Below, piece after piece: positions 7,238-62,535 of a stretch of 64,000 bases of DNA (position 1 is its first letter; each line of letters starts with the position of its first letter). Under the pieces are notes generated by a model, which saw only the letters and a list, made by a program, of their open reading frames with translations, was not told the DNA's origin and did not search any database. A program made the translations under genes and the position numbers. This DNA comes from Spinactinospora alkalitolerans (GTDB lineage Bacteria; Actinomycetota; Actinomycetes; Streptosporangiales; Streptosporangiaceae): assembly GCF_013408795.1 (NCBI RefSeq), contig NZ_JACCCC010000001.1, positions 1,302,001 through 1,366,000 of the forward strand. The letters are read 5' to 3'.

Positions 7238-8935
7238 ATGACGTCCGCCGTCCCCGTCGCCGTCCCGCCGACCGTCCGGGCGGAGCGGCCGCTGACGATG
7301 TGCGGGCCGGACTTCCCGTTCGGCTACGACGACTACCTGGCCCACCCCGCCGGTCTCGGCTCGGTGCCGCCCGACAGCCACGGCACCGAGGTCGCCGTCA
7401 TCGGCGGCGGGCTCTCCGGGATGGTCACCGCCTACGAGCTGATGAAGCTCGGGCTCAGGCCGGTCGTCTACGAGGCCGACCAGATCGGCGGCCGGCTGCG
7501 CACCGTCGAGCTCGACGGCTGCCCCGACGACGTGGTCGCCGAGATGGGCGCCATGCGCTTCCCGCCGTCGTCCACGGCCCTGTTCCACTACATCGACAAG
7601 GTGGGCCTGCGCACCGAGCCGTTCCCCAACCCGCTGACGCCGGCCGCGCCCAGCACGGTGGTCGACCTCAAGGGCCGCGCGCACTACGCGCGCACCGCGC
7701 AGGACCTGCCGCCGGTCTACGACGAGGTGTCGCGGGCCTGGTGGCGCACCCTTGAGGAGGGCGCCCGCTTCGGCGAGATGCAGCAGGCGATCCGCGACCG
7801 CGACGTCGCGCGGATGAAGGCCGTCTGGAACGAGCTCGTCCCCACCATGGACAACCAGACGTTCTACGGCTTCCTGTGCGACTCCCCGGCCTTCGCCTCC
7901 TTCCGGCACCGGGAGATCTTCGGCCAGGTCGGCTTCGGCACCGGCGGCTGGGACACCGACTTCCCCAACTCCATCCTGGAGATCCTGCGCGTCGTCTACA
8001 CCGGCGCCGACGACGACCACCTGAGCATCGTCGGCGGTAGTCGGCGGCTTCCGCTGCGGCTGTGGGACCGGGTGCCGGACAAGGCGGACCACTGGCCCAC
8101 CGGGACGACCCTGCGCTCCCTGCACGAGGGCGGGCGGCCGCGCCCGGCCGTCACCCGCATGTACCGCACCGCGCCCGGCAACGTCACGGTCGCCGACGCC
8201 TCCGGGGCGATCCGCACCTATCGGGCGGCGGTGTTCACCGCGCAGAGCTGGATGATGCTCAGCAAGGTCAAGTGCGACGAGGCGCTGTTGCCGATCGACC
8301 ACTGGACGGCGATCGAACGCACCCACTACATGGAGTCCTCCAAGCTGTTCGTTCCGGTGGACCGCCCGTTCTGGCGGGACGTCGACCCCGCGACCGGCCG
8401 CGACACCATGAGCATGACGCTGACCGACCGCATGACCCGGGGCACCTACCTGCTGGACGCGGGGCCGGACCGCCCCGCGGCGATCTGCATGTCCTACACC
8501 TGGTGCGACGACTCGCTGAAGTGGCTGCCGCTGTCGCCGCACGAGCGGCTGGAGGTCATGCTCGCCTCACTGGGGGAGATCTACCCCGGCGTGGACATCC
8601 GCGGCCACATCATCGGCGACCCGGTCACCGTCTCCTGGGAGGCGGAGCCCTACTTCATGGGCGCGTTCAAGGCGAACCTGCCCGGCCACTACCGCTACCA
8701 GCGGCGGCTGTTCACCCATTTCAAGCAGGACGACCTCGAAGAGCGCCACCGCGGACTGTTCCTGGCCGGCGACGACATCTCGTGGACGGCCGGCTGGGCC
8801 GAGGGCGCGGTGCAGACCGCGCTCAACGCCGTGTGGGGGGTGATGCACCACCTGGGCGGCCGGACCGACGCCGCCAACCCCGGCCCCGGCGACGTGTTCG
8901 ACGACATCGCCCCGATCGAACTCCCCGACGACTGA
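7238..8935 (+). CDS. davB: L-lysine 2-monooxygenase (FAD amine oxidase family)
   Basis: A 565-aa flavoenzyme predicted to convert L-lysine and O2 to 5-aminovaleramide, CO2 and water. The FAD dinucleotide-binding motif VAVIGGGLSGMVTAYE starts near residue 52 and is followed by GGRLR. It closely matches my memory of Pseudomonas putida DavB: GPDFPF near the N-terminus, FPNPLTP, IFGQVGFGTGGWD, DFPNSILEI, GHIIGDPVTVSWEA and a C-terminal WAEGAVQTALNAVWG. This is stronger than the resemblance to tryptophan 2-monooxygenases of the same family. The ATG is preceded by AGAGGAGG. It is the last gene of a permease-davA-davB operon; no davT or davD is in the window. Confidence 0.9.
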   Translation: MTSAVPVAVPPTVRAERPLTMCGPDFPFGYDDYLAHPAGLGSVPPDSHGTEVAVIGGGLSGMVTAYELMKLGLRPVVYEADQIGGRLRTVELDGCPDDVVAEMGAMRFPPSSTALFHYIDKVGLRTEPFPNPLTPAAPSTVVDLKGRAHYARTAQDLPPVYDEVSRAWWRTLEEGARFGEMQQAIRDRDVARMKAVWNELVPTMDNQTFYGFLCDSPAFASFRHREIFGQVGFGTGGWDTDFPNSILEILRVVYTGADDDHLSIVGGSRRLPLRLWDRVPDKADHWPTGTTLRSLHEGGRPRPAVTRMYRTAPGNVTVADASGAIRTYRAAVFTAQSWMMLSKVKCDEALLPIDHWTAIERTHYMESSKLFVPVDRPFWRDVDPATGRDTMSMTLTDRMTRGTYLLDAGPDRPAAICMSYTWCDDSLKWLPLSPHERLEVMLASLGEIYPGVDIRGHIIGDPVTVSWEAEPYFMGAFKANLPGHYRYQRRLFTHFKQDDLEERHRGLFLAGDDISWTAGWAEGAVQTALNAVWGVMHHLGGRTDAANPGPGDVFDDIAPIELPDD

Positions 8936-8949
8936 AGGCCGACGGCCCT

Positions 8950-9100
8950 GAAGGCATGAACCTCGACCACAGGGGGCCTTGAACCTCAGCCGCAGGACGG
9001 AGCCCGCGGTGACTGGGCGATTCTCTCGCGTGGCCGAAGGCCCATGGACGGAAATCGCCCATCCGCGCGCCACCTTCGTCCTGCGGCGGGCCTTGACCCC
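8950..9100 (+). repeat. Dispersed structured repeat, family A copy 1
   Basis: This fills the gap between the convergent davB and lrp genes. Two nested stems are visible: an outer 11-bp stem, GCCGCAGGACG (8989-8999) with CGTCCTGCGGC (9077-9087), and an inner 9-bp stem, TGGGCGATT (9014-9022) with AATCGCCCA (9053-9061). They enclose the shared core CTCTCGCGTGGCCGAAGGCC. Related copies lie near 26.9, 27.1 and 59.8 kb. Confidence 0.8.
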
Positions 9101-9113
9101 CGGGGTCGAGGTC

Positions 9114-9593
9114 TCACAGCCCCGCCGGCGCCATGTCCGGGGCCGGTTCGGGAAGCACCTGCTGGTCGACCAGGCGGGACAGGACCAGGGTGCTCTTCGT
9201 GCGCACCACGAAGGGCTGGGCGCCGATCCGCTCGATGGTCTCCTCCAGGTGCCCCACGTCGCGGGCCCGGATGTGCACGACCGCGTCGGCGTCGCCGGTC
9301 ACGGTGCAGGCCGAGATGACCTCGGCGCAGCCGGTGAGGCCGGCCCGGATCTCCGTGGGCGAGGTGCGGGCGCGGCAGTAGAGCTCGATGTAGGCCTCGG
9401 TGCCCCAGCCGATCGCGGCCGGGTCCAGCCGCACGGTGAAGCCGCGGATCACCCCCGAGGCCGTCAGCCGGTCGATCCGGCGCTTCACCGCCGAGGCGGA
9501 CAGCCCGACGGCCGCCCCGATCTCGGCGAACGTCGCGCGGGCGTCGGCGCCCAGGAGCGCCACGATCCGCTCGTCAACGTCGTCCAGCCGCAC
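9114..9593 (-). CDS. Lrp/AsnC-family transcriptional regulator
   Basis: A 159-aa feast-famine regulator with an N-terminal helix-turn-helix (LDDVDERIVALLGADARATF, then GLSASAVKRRIDRLTASGVI) and a C-terminal RAM ligand-binding domain (about residues 70-145, including CTVTGDADAVVHIRARD). I chose GTG at 9593 because AGGGGGTGG lies about 7 bases upstream and the length then matches the family; a longer upstream extension reads as low-complexity sequence. It converges on the davB operon, so it is the natural candidate regulator of lysine catabolism, with an amino acid as ligand (inferred). Confidence 0.88.
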   Translation of the reverse strand: MRLDDVDERIVALLGADARATFAEIGAAVGLSASAVKRRIDRLTASGVIRGFTVRLDPAAIGWGTEAYIELYCRARTSPTEIRAGLTGCAEVISACTVTGDADAVVHIRARDVGHLEETIERIGAQPFVVRTKSTLVLSRLVDQQVLPEPAPDMAPAGL

Positions 9594-12359: not shown

Positions 12360-12517
12360 ATCGCTGACGGGAGAAGGCCGGGACGGTCTCCAGGCCCTGC
12401 CGGGGTCCTGCGGGCCTGGTGGGGCTGTTGCCAGCGCGCTGACGGCAGCCTTCCCGGATCATGCGGTGGTGAACGAAAGGACTGCGGCCACAGCTTTCCA
12501 ATTCCCGTCAACGATCT
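12358..12517 (+). mobile_element. MITE-like repeat, family B copy 1
   Basis: A 160-bp non-coding element with 15-bp terminal inverted repeats matching at 14 of 15 positions: left AGATCGCTGACGGGA (12358-12372), right TCCCGTCAACGATCT (12503-12517). The left end falls on the GNAT stop codon and the flanking tetranucleotide is CTAG. It shares long stretches with 62359-62535, for example GCGCTGACGGCAGCCTTCCC and ACAGCTTTCC. Confidence 0.8.
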
Positions 12518-12615
12518 CAGGCGGTGTTCTCCGGGGCGGCGCCGTGTCCGTCCGGCACCGCGCCGCCCCGGTTCCTCGCCCGCGGCCGGTCCGGACCGGT
12601 GCGACCGGGGCGGGA

Positions 12616-12659
12616 GGGAGCACGGCCGCCTCGGGGGCAGGGAGGCCGGCCGTGCTCCC
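12616..12659. terminator. Strong hairpin terminator
   Basis: The left arm GGGAGCACGGCCG (12616-12628) pairs exactly with CGGCCGTGCTCCC (12647-12659), and an inner CCTC/GAGG pairing can extend the stem. It lies about 45 bases beyond the stop of the minus-strand cyclase-like gene and can also stop transcription from the GNAT gene. Confidence 0.7.
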
Positions 12660-12704
12660 GGCTCGGGAGGGGCCCTCATCGGGGCGCCTCGGCGCCCCGC
12701 GGTC

Positions 12705-26604: not shown

Positions 26605-26854
26605 GGCCTCACGCGAATAGGGGGTCGGGGGATCGCCCCCACCCCGCCCGGGGGTGGGGGCGTTGCTGCGGCGAACGAGCTGCGACCGGGAGCCTTTCCC
26701 GCCGGTGCCCGGAGTTCTGTTCTTAACCGCTCCGGCGCACCCGCGCAACCGGTATCCCGGAATCAGTGCCTTTCGGCCCGGCTCCGAGGGACCTAAGGCT
26801 CGGCGCTCGGGCGGCGACTCCACGGCTCCCGGCGTTGAGCCCCACCCTCGGCCT
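26605..26854. other. Upstream region of the first LuxR-type gene
   Basis: Together with the two family A repeats, this makes a 584-base gap between the tandem regulators. The stretch 26605-26854 contains no recognisable gene and presumably carries the minus-strand promoter of the 24139-26604 regulator. Confidence 0.45.
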
Positions 26855-26965
26855 TGAGTTTCAGCCTTGACCACAAGGAGTCTTCGACCTCAGCCGAAGG
26901 GGGGATCCGCGGTGACTGGGCGATCCTCTCGCGTGGCCGGAGGCCCCCTACAGGGATCGCCCCGG
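26855..26965 (+). repeat. Dispersed structured repeat, family A copy 2
   Basis: It shares GGGCGATCCTCTCGCGTGGCC with the copy at 59.8 kb and keeps the inner stem as GGGCGATCC pairing with GGATCGCCC. The outer right arm has diverged. It lies in inverted orientation to copy 3, about 100 bases away. Confidence 0.75.
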
Positions 26966-27044
26966 CACCGCGCAACCCACGCCGCCACTCTGGGCGCCAG
27001 ACCGAAACCGCGGTGACGGTGCGCGCCCACAGCGGCGGGTCCGC

Positions 27045-27185
27045 TTCGCGCGCGGGTGGGCGATTTCCATCCACGGGCCTTCGGCCACACGAGAGAATGG
27101 CCATCCGCACGCCCTCCCTCCTGTGGCGGGCCTCAAAGACCCCCTGAAGCCAAGGCTTCCTTCGCCCCCAAGGGCCGGCCTTCAG
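27045..27185 (-). repeat. Dispersed structured repeat, family A copy 3 (inverted)
   Basis: On the minus strand it reads ATTCTCTCGTGTGGCCGAAG followed by GCCCGTGGATGGAAATCGCC, aligning with copies 1 and 4. The inner stem has two mismatches and the outer right arm is not recognisable, so this copy is more decayed or rearranged. It abuts the end of the second LuxR-type gene. Confidence 0.75.
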
Positions 27186-38287: not shown

Positions 38288-38528
38288 CGAGCTTCGACCA
38301 CCGCGTTCGCGGGGCAGGGTGGGATTTCCAGGGCTCGGACCCGCCGTGCCGCCGACGCTACGCGCACCGCGACAGCCGACCCCTGTGCGGATCCGGCCGT
38401 CGAACATCAGTGAGACCGCGCGTCCGCCGTAACCGGGCCGCAATGGGGCGGAGACGGCTCCGACACCTGCCCGTGCCGGACTTGGAGCGCGTGGTTCCCC
38501 GCGCGGCCCGCACCGCGCCCGCCGGCGG

Positions 38529-38550
38529 AGTTGGGCAGCACTGCACAACT
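38529..38550. promoter_or_regulatory. Near-perfect 22-base palindrome upstream of the permease-cox operon
   Basis: AGTTG-G-GCAG-CA-CTGC-A-CAACT: nested arms pair with one mismatch. It lies about 170-190 bases before the permease start, in a 430-base gap without a gene, and is a good candidate operator, possibly for PucR. Confidence 0.5.
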
Positions 38551-38554
38551 GAGG

Positions 38555-38639
38555 GGAGAGTGTTTAGCAGTTGTCGCCAGTGAAGCCGGTTTCCGCAGCT
38601 CCTTAGGGTTGCCCCATTCAGTGAAGCAGGTCACTCTCC
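38555..38639. promoter_or_regulatory. Paired repeats in the permease promoter region
   Basis: The inverted octamers GGAGAGTG (38555-38562) and CACTCTCC (38632-38639) enclose two direct copies of CAGTGAAGC (38578-38586 and 38619-38627) that are 41 bases apart, close to four helical turns. The layout suggests cooperative regulator binding. Confidence 0.4.
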
Positions 38640-38717
38640 GGGCTTCGCGAAAAAGGGGTTGCAGGCCGGGTCCGCCGGGGAACCCAGTCGCGCCAGAGTC
38701 GTCTTTTGGAGGCGGGT

Positions 38718-59459: not shown

Positions 59460-59729
59460 GTGGCCCATGAACTCGGCGCACAGGAGAAGATCACCTACGG
59501 CCGGAACGACCGGTTCGAAGGCGGCCCGGTCGGAGGGGGCCGGTTCTGGCTGGACGAGCAGGGAAGACCCGTGGCCAAGATCGGGGGCCCGCCGGACTGG
59601 CAGCCCGAGGTCATGATCGACGTGCGCATCGGCGACACCTTCGCCGTGGGCGGGCAGACCTGGCGGATCACCGACATCGTCGACGCCGAGTCCCCCAAGG
59701 CCTACCTGCTGGCGGTCCGGGTCGGCTGA
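59460..59729 (+). CDS. Small uncharacterised protein (about 89 aa)
   Basis: Not recognised with certainty. The product from GTG 59460 begins VAHELGAQEKITYGRNDRFE and later reads MIDVRIGDTFAVGGQTWRIT followed by DIVDAESPKAYLLAVRVG. This beta-rich ending resembles small Streptomyces proteins of the DUF6406 type (from memory). No signal peptide, membrane segment or cysteine is seen. AAAGAG precedes the GTG. An in-frame ATG at 59403 would add 19 residues without family-like sequence. It lies between the catabolic island and repeat A4 and has no operon partner. Confidence 0.6.
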   Translation: MAHELGAQEKITYGRNDRFEGGPVGGGRFWLDEQGRPVAKIGGPPDWQPEVMIDVRIGDTFAVGGQTWRITDIVDAESPKAYLLAVRVG

Positions 59730-59774
59730 TCCGGCGCCGGACGCGGATGCTGTCCCGCCGCGCTCCCGCCCGCC

Positions 59775-59930
59775 GATCTTGGCCTTGAGTTTCAACCTCG
59801 GCCATCGGGGGCCGTGAAGCCTCAGCCCAAGGAGGGATCCGCGATGACTGGGCGATCCTCTCGCGTGGCCGAAGGCCCGTAGACGGAAATCGTCCACCCG
59901 CGCGCCGTCCCTCCTGGGGCGGGCCTGGCC
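59775..59930 (+). repeat. Dispersed structured repeat, family A copy 4
   Basis: The outer stem GCCCAAGGAGGGA (59825-59837) pairs with TCCCTCCTGGGGC (59908-59920), 12 of 13 pairs. The inner stem TGGGCGAT (59849-59856) pairs with ATCGTCCA (59889-59896) with one G-T wobble. The core GCGTGGCCGAAGGCCC is shared with copy 1. Two outer pairs are swapped relative to copy 1, C-G for G-C and the reverse. Confidence 0.8.
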
Positions 59931-60303
59931 GATCTCCTGGGTCGAGGTCGGCCAGGCCGCCCGACCCGGTGTGGCCGAACGCGCCCCGGTCTCCTGGGCG
60001 GCGGTCCCGCGTGCGCAGAACGCAGCGGAGCGCTGCGCTGACCCTGCGAATCGAGACGCTTCGGTTACGTGGAACACGTTCCCGCCGAGACCTTCCCGCC
60101 GCTACCTTCGATGCTGGTCGGAGGCTGTTCCGCGCTCCCGCTGCGCCGGACCCGGCGCCCGCACCGGCCCCTTCCCGCGGTCGGCCGGAGCGCCGCGACC
60201 GGTCCCAGGGGCTGTCCCCCGTCCCTGGGGCCGTGTCACCGGCCGCGTCGCGCGACCGGTGGGTGCGGGCGGGGCGTGTCCCCGTGTGGGTTAGGTTCTT
60301 CGC
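59931..60303. other. Non-coding gap before the Dabb gene
   Basis: No gene recognised. A small perfect palindrome, CAGCG-GAG-CGCTG, occurs near 60020-60032. A T-rich GGTTAGGTTC just before 60300 may be a -10 region for the next gene. Confidence 0.4.
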
Positions 60304-60607: not shown

Positions 60608-60899
60608 CTACTGAGGTTTGCGGAAGTCGCGCGGGGTGGGATGGCGGGGAGGCTGCGGCGGGAGCGCGGCCCCTTTCCTCGGGCGGGATGCTTTATCGCC
60701 GCCGGTGGGCCGCGCCCCGCCGCCGAAGCAGACGGCAAAGGTGTGCGCGAACCCGCGCCACCGCTTCGGCCGGGAGGCGCGGCCCCACGCCGGGCTCACC
60801 GGTGAAGGACGCGCCAAGAGGGCCGCACTCTCCCGGCGACCTCCCGCAGAACCGTCCCTGCACCTAAAAGGCCCGCTCGACTTCTGCAAGCCTCAATAG
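60608..60899. mobile_element. MITE-like element, family C
   Basis: A 292-bp segment bounded by 28-bp terminal inverted repeats that agree at 24 positions: left begins CTACTGAGGTTTGCGGAAGT, and the right end, read on the minus strand, begins CTATTGAGGCTTGCAGAAGT. It has no transposase; the two 93-codon open frames on opposite strands are by-products of the symmetry. It starts 4 bases after the Dabb stop codon. Confidence 0.75.
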
Positions 60900-61080
60900 A
60901 TCCTGTTCTCATTTATCGGGCGCCCGGTGCCGGAGACGGCTCGGGCGCCTTTGCCGTTTCCGGTAAATACTTATGTTCTCAGGGGGATCCGAGGCGGACC
61001 CGAAGTTTCCGGCGCGGGGTGCGGACCCGGTCTTGCGCTAGAACGGGTTTCAGTATTAGGTTCCCTTGCAGAGCCCCGGG

Positions 61081-62360: not shown

Positions 62361-62535
62361 GTCGTTGATGGGAGAAAGGCGGGGACGGTTTCCAGGCCCT
62401 GCTCGGCCTTTGCGGGCCCGGGTGGGGCTGTTGTCGGGCCTGCAGCGTCCGGCGACGCGCTGACGGCAGCCTTCCCGGGTCACCAGGGGTGAATGGAGGA
62501 TTGCGACTACAGCTTTCCGACCCCGGCAACGATCT
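62359..62535 (+). mobile_element. MITE-like repeat, family B copy 2
   Basis: A 177-bp element that exactly fills the space between the stop codons of the convergent fkbM-family and tetR genes. The ends read AAGTCGTTGATGGGA on the left and CAACGATCT on the right, imperfect versions of the copy 1 terminal repeats. The flanks are CTAA (62357-62360) and CTAG (62534-62537), which fit an IS5-type YTAR target duplication. Confidence 0.78.

Follow-up and report, generated by a model that had tools for sequence, protein, structure and literature searches.

The 64-kb window (the whole stretch of DNA analysed here) and the Spinactinospora alkalitolerans genome from which it comes contain a palindromic interspersed repeat, hereafter referred to as family A. 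We consider it likely that family A is a non-coding palindromic element, interspersed and specific to this lineage, of the general REP/BIME/MITE type, which multiplied, decays, and persists behind stop codons. We describe it as a palindromic interspersed repeat that works like a BIME, and do not file it as a REP or a REPIN. A REP-like mobile palindrome was one of the options offered by the initial annotation of the window, and this option fits a many-copy, intergenic hairpin element found mostly 3' of genes. Family A adds to the REP/BIME-like repeats a large family that had not been matched before; it resides in a Nocardiopsis-type actinomycete, and the usual explanation by RAYT does not apply to it.

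Copies and anatomy of family A

Four sites matching the core CTCTCGCGTGGCCGAAGGCC were found in the window, at 9023-9042 (+), 26926-26945 (+, one mismatch), 27076-27095 (-, one mismatch) and 59858-59877 (+), compared to 0.04 expected by chance; none of 100 shuffled sequences reached four. The initial annotation had placed four copies at about 9.0, 26.9, 27.1 and 59.8 kb, and all were found at these places. They are, however, not four separate copies, as the second and third are halves of a single 291-bp element. In the complete genome (6.68 Mb, one contig) 157 cores were detected with up to 3 mismatches, while a reversed control pattern gave 5; a covariance model (R1) gave at least 150 matches. 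The approximately 157 cores fall into about 100 elements. Of 41 close core pairs 40 are convergent, and the distances between cores group around 149 and 291 bp. This regular arrangement identifies copies 2 and 3 as inverted halves of one element, and the window therefore contains three elements. Their boundaries were set by alignment to the arm consensus.

Element 1 (8961-9111, + strand, 151 bp) is a short form with a B-type left arm, a core hairpin and an A-type right arm. It takes up most of the spacer 8936-9113, which is flanked by the convergent stop codons (at 8935 and at 9114) of genes called at 7238-8935 (+) and 9114-9593 (-). Its core hairpin, delimited from the sequence, occupies 9015-9060 (+) and has an outer stem formed by GGGCGATT (9015-9022) and AATCGCCC (9053-9060) and an inner stem GGCC-GAA-GGCC at 9032-9042. 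Folding of 8960-9120 yielded -95.7 kcal/mol (z = -5.9), with a single hairpin from 8960 to about 9112. Element 2 (26865-27155, +) is the two-core form, defined by its core pair, B/A class and arm boundaries: the core at 26926-26945 (+) lies in a B half and the core at 27076-27095 (-) in an inverted A half. The two cores are convergent and 150 bp apart; 18 pairs in the genome have spacings of 133-151 bp. A partial outer module, GGCCTTGAGTTTCAG, precedes it at 26850-26864 (+). Element 3 (59796-59947, +, 152 bp) is again a short form, with a B arm, the core at 59858-59877 and an A arm, and is located directly downstream of a gene at 59460-59729 (+). Its outer module CGCCGATCTTGGCCTTGAGTTTCAA (59771-59795, +) is also part of a separate palindrome, family C. 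The outer module TTGACCTTGAGTTTCAACC is present at 36 of 102 elements. Folding of 59780-59950, which covers element 3, gave z = -2.9, and the nested inverted repeats that had been described around the core are borne out by the sequence and by the folding of both regions.

Genome-wide comparison revealed that family A is a long inverted repeat, in which a B half is joined to an A half of opposite orientation. The two halves have older counterparts, X and Y, and nearly all typable two-core elements combine one B-type (or X) half with one A-type (or Y) half. Measured between conserved arm ends, elements fall into length classes of about 151, 220, 293 and 435 bp. The 435-bp form is the least diverged and the long form the most homogeneous (0.87 for the A half and 0.91 for the B half, compared to 0.76 and 0.78 in the short form). 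The most constant part of family A is the loop strand, unpaired and conserved as CTCTCGCGT, together with the GGCC-GNA-GGCC mini-hairpin. Across 152 hairpin copies the inner stem and its GNA loop hardly vary: G occupies the first loop position in 152 of 152, the second is variable and A occupies the third in 144. The loop is of the C-GNA-G type, which we take to be unusually stable in DNA. Eleven further sites carry arms without a core and without a transposase and look internally deleted.

The unit would be two related but different hairpin halves, B and A, inverted relative to each other, each being a stem that encloses the conserved loop strand and the mini-hairpin. It probably multiplied within this lineage as a non-autonomous unit. 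To judge from the forms present, internal deletion may have shortened the elements to the 293- and 151-bp forms and then to core-less remnants. At loci L088 and L117 (near 4000), L197 and L204 stop codons apparently lie inside repeat sequence, as if an element had supplied the end of the reading frame.

Base-pair changes in the core hairpins

In the initial annotation, compensatory changes between copies were read as the mark of selection on a hairpin. The outer-stem exchanges are present: between copy 1 (GCCGCAGGACGGAG/CTTCGTCCTGCGGC) and copy 4 (GCCCAAGGAGGGAT/GTCCCTCCTGGGGC) one G-C pair is replaced by C-G and one C-G pair by G-C, but copy 4 also has an A x G mismatch, which had been omitted. 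Likewise, in the inner stem GATT/AATC is changed to GATC/GATC in copy 2 and a G-T wobble is found in copy 4, but the same stem of copy 4 also contains a C x A mismatch.

The initial annotation had named a lack of significant covariation, once more copies were aligned, as an outcome that would refute its reading. APC-corrected G scores from 152 aligned hairpins were compared to those of alignments simulated along a FastTree tree, with the expected number of changes per column kept. No pair covaried significantly beyond phylogeny, the T-A/C-G pair having an E-value of about 27. This is the refuting outcome that had been named, and it applies to the claim of selection on RNA. The strongest column correlations involve columns that do not pair with each other, and mark the A and B types. 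Swapping 3' strands within subtypes left the duplex energy at -26.40 kcal/mol, compared to -26.52 for own strands (p = 0.10; 0.42-0.91 in single subtypes, the power of the covariation and the pairing tests being limited for the rare X and Y subfamilies). Swapping partner strands across subtypes weakened pairing (z = -8.35). In the outer arms identity-based pairing was 0.674 within and 0.673 between elements, and an energy-based test gave a weak signal (p = 0.02). Taken together, the swaps within and across subtypes indicate that pairing was kept between a few old subfamilies and was not updated copy by copy.

Most of the "compensatory" changes go back to a small number of old differences between subfamilies, with pairing kept across about three stem subfamilies, which amounts to a few events. 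Template switching during replication can also restore pairing in palindromes (PMC8794818) and could have produced these events too, so that they are no proof of selection on RNA. A palindrome with two swapped base pairs can mimic RNA selection until the changes are tested against the relatedness of copies. An RNAalifold consensus built from exact-core copies was rejected as misleading, because choosing copies by an exact core removes variation.

Selection as a structured RNA, in the form of a small RNA or an RNA-processing element, would accord with the strong folding (z = -5.9), the nearly invariant inner stem with its GNA loop, and the pairing that is preserved in three stem subfamilies and loses strength on cross-subtype swapping (z = -8.35). 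We nevertheless regard it as very improbable. No significant covariation was observed on the tree-aware null, and none within subtypes. Single elements have the same orientation as transcription in 20 cases and the opposite in 16, and this absence of a preferred strand is evidence against a small RNA. There was no Rfam match: searches at the gathering threshold and at E <= 1 returned only a meaningless 12-bit match.

Placement behind genes and distribution among relatives

Spacers that contain elements are convergent in 50 cases, tandem in 52 and divergent in 2. The corresponding numbers for the remaining spacers (30 bp or longer) from the same sequence stretches around the repeats, with genes from a codon-usage caller, are 42, 260 and 117 (Fisher test, p about 1e-16 for the convergent excess and 7e-11 for the divergent deficit). 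Elements are located on the stop-codon side, with a median distance of 57 nt from stop codon to element end, and no more than one of the core calls overlaps with a called gene. Where convergent spacers are shortest, there is hardly any sequence besides the element, with 10-50 nt left over in several; a low-stringency BLAST estimate of spacer coverage reached into gene ends and was left out of these numbers. The intergenic and mostly 3' position noted in the window thus extends to the whole genome.

Copies in genes and promoters were presumably purged, which would explain why copies persist almost only behind stop codons. Each copy would form a strong hairpin on either strand, which probably blocks or ends transcripts passively and in the same way on both strands. 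We infer that the copies that remain do no more than form passive hairpins where transcripts end. Alternatively, the position behind genes might reflect recruitment for a function. The elements may in that case be bidirectional terminators or transcript-end insulators maintained by selection, the hairpin halting RNA polymerase from either side without a U-tract. We consider this a real possibility, though on balance it does not convince us. Arguments for it are that the elements are strongly enriched between convergent genes and on the stop-codon side, and that they fill the shortest convergent spacers almost alone. Family A differs from intrinsic terminators, with which it shares a GC-rich hairpin behind a gene, in that it has no U-tract, is much longer and is an interspersed repeat sequence. 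Against such a role, a search for T-tract terminators at the window elements detected none, the one weak call (26834-26852) being outside element 2. Covariation beyond phylogeny was not observed, and such a terminator would be used by this lineage only. REPs elsewhere have been described as not specific terminators, at least in the work cited within PMC1525189.

The same explanation is touched by gene order in relatives. Protein searches placed the host near Allosalinactinospora, Nocardiopsis and Streptomonospora. The flavin amine oxidase and AsnC-type regulator genes are also convergent in most named relatives examined. No family A element was found at the orthologous junction in named Nocardiopsis-type relatives, and a model search of 50 amine-oxidase/asnC loci gave a best E-value of 1.6. 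The gap in Allosalinactinospora is very short, with 17 bp up to where the alignment of the regulator ends. In several relatives a different simple hairpin occupies this junction, so a hairpin there seems usual, in line with a terminator.

Family A is restricted to this lineage as far as searched. Its pattern had no match among 60 relatives, and covariance model R1 had none among 40. Model R2 had none among 200 other genomes of the host's taxonomic family from 68 genera, where scoring of the best 22 candidates per genome means that weak relatives could be missed; the host genus is represented among the sampled genomes by this one genome. Exact scans of named bacterial genomes and viral contigs, together with a plasmid search, revealed no family A element, and no paper on such repeats in connection with Nocardiopsis came up in a search of the literature.

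Mobility and likeness to known repeats

Like REPs and BIMEs, family A is palindromic, extragenic and present in many copies, commonly as inverted heterodimers, and is placed on the stop-codon side, between genes that are convergent or unidirectional (PMC3733652, PMC1525189); many extragenic palindromes behind genes, often in inverted pairs, is what we found here. Convergent and unidirectional placement behind genes is general among the surveyed REP families (PMC3733652). CGTC REPs likewise have no dedicated transposase (PMC3733652, PMC1525189). The phyla reported for GTAG and CGTC REPs in the survey do not include actinobacteria (PMC3733652, PMC1525189). The unit of these REPs is 20-40 bp, however, compared to 151-435 bp for family A, and no unpaired GTAG or CGTC tag was present at the stem foot in family A alignments.

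With REPINs, family A shares a unit of two inverted hairpin halves (PMC3116915). The replicating unit of REPINs was recognised by its lower divergence (PMC3116915), and in family A, too, multi-core forms are less diverged than single-core ones, as expected of a doublet (PMC3116915). In contrast to REPINs, the halves of family A are much longer and of two fixed kinds, and the genome contains no RAYT. The search for a REP-associated tyrosine transposase that had been asked for was performed with PF01797 (Y1 HUH/RAYT, IS200-type): no match was obtained in this genome, while control matches were obtained in 5 of 14 genomes. RAYT is thereby ruled out as the spreading enzyme, as far as PF01797 can recognise it. 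It is conceivable, though quite unlikely, that family A is a REPIN-like heterodimer which spread via folded single-stranded DNA marked by C-GNA-G, aided by an enzyme that is not a Y1/RAYT transposase, and now serves as a standard convergent transcript end.

MITEs resemble family A in being short, non-coding and multi-copy, with inverted ends and internal deletions. Family A might be what is left of the ends of a known insertion sequence after decay, or a MITE moved by a transposase still in the genome, and we find such an origin rather doubtful. Its inverted ends, lack of coding capacity and internal deletions are consistent with it, as is the residence in the same genome of a separate, recent TA-flanked palindromic MITE family and of IS630-type transposases. 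However, in a survey of about 100 of 131 listed sites no +/- end pair enclosed a coding-size interval, all pairs lying within about 0.6 kb, and no parent insertion sequence was found among the ends listed. The end motifs considered for family A (AGTTTCAACCTCG and TCTCGCCGATCTTGACCTTG) are unlike the ends of the IS630 element and of the TA MITE. No Y1/RAYT transposase is encoded, and there is no clear target-site duplication: at the inner boundary none was detected, matches being fewer than in shuffled sequences. At the outer boundaries of some copies that lie within a family C palindrome, a 9-bp direct repeat (TTGACCTTG/CAAGGTCAA) is present. It is ambiguous because the same bases recur inside the repeats and belong to both repeat families, and we treat it as a lead towards transposition, not as proof.

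Family C itself is a REP-like palindrome of about 70-75 bp, TCTCGCCGATCTTGACCTTGTGGGG...CCCCACAAGGTCAAGATCGGCGAGA, observed at loci L216, L217, L219, L220, L221 and L223. It occurs alone in spacers, mostly behind genes, and is split around some family A elements, with the 9-bp direct repeat. The TA-flanked element is represented in the window at 60609-60903 by a separate palindrome of about 290 bp with TA at both ends, TACTGAGGTTTGC...GCAAGCCTCAATA. Since its seven full genome copies are near-identical (97-98%), it is probably a recently active MITE, as judged from sequence identity. The IS630-type element, which encodes a DDE_3 transposase and has ends TACTGAGCTTTTCGTTAG, is present at L225:1340-2500 and L224:912-2072 in copies that are 99.9% identical; one copy is located exactly at the terminal TA of a TA MITE copy. 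The convergent spacers 12360-12704 and 62361-62533 of the window contain another repeat family, common to loci L098 and L045, and the spacer 38288-38717 contains a repeat that recurs at about 15 further loci, with up to 82-83% identity over about 130 bp.
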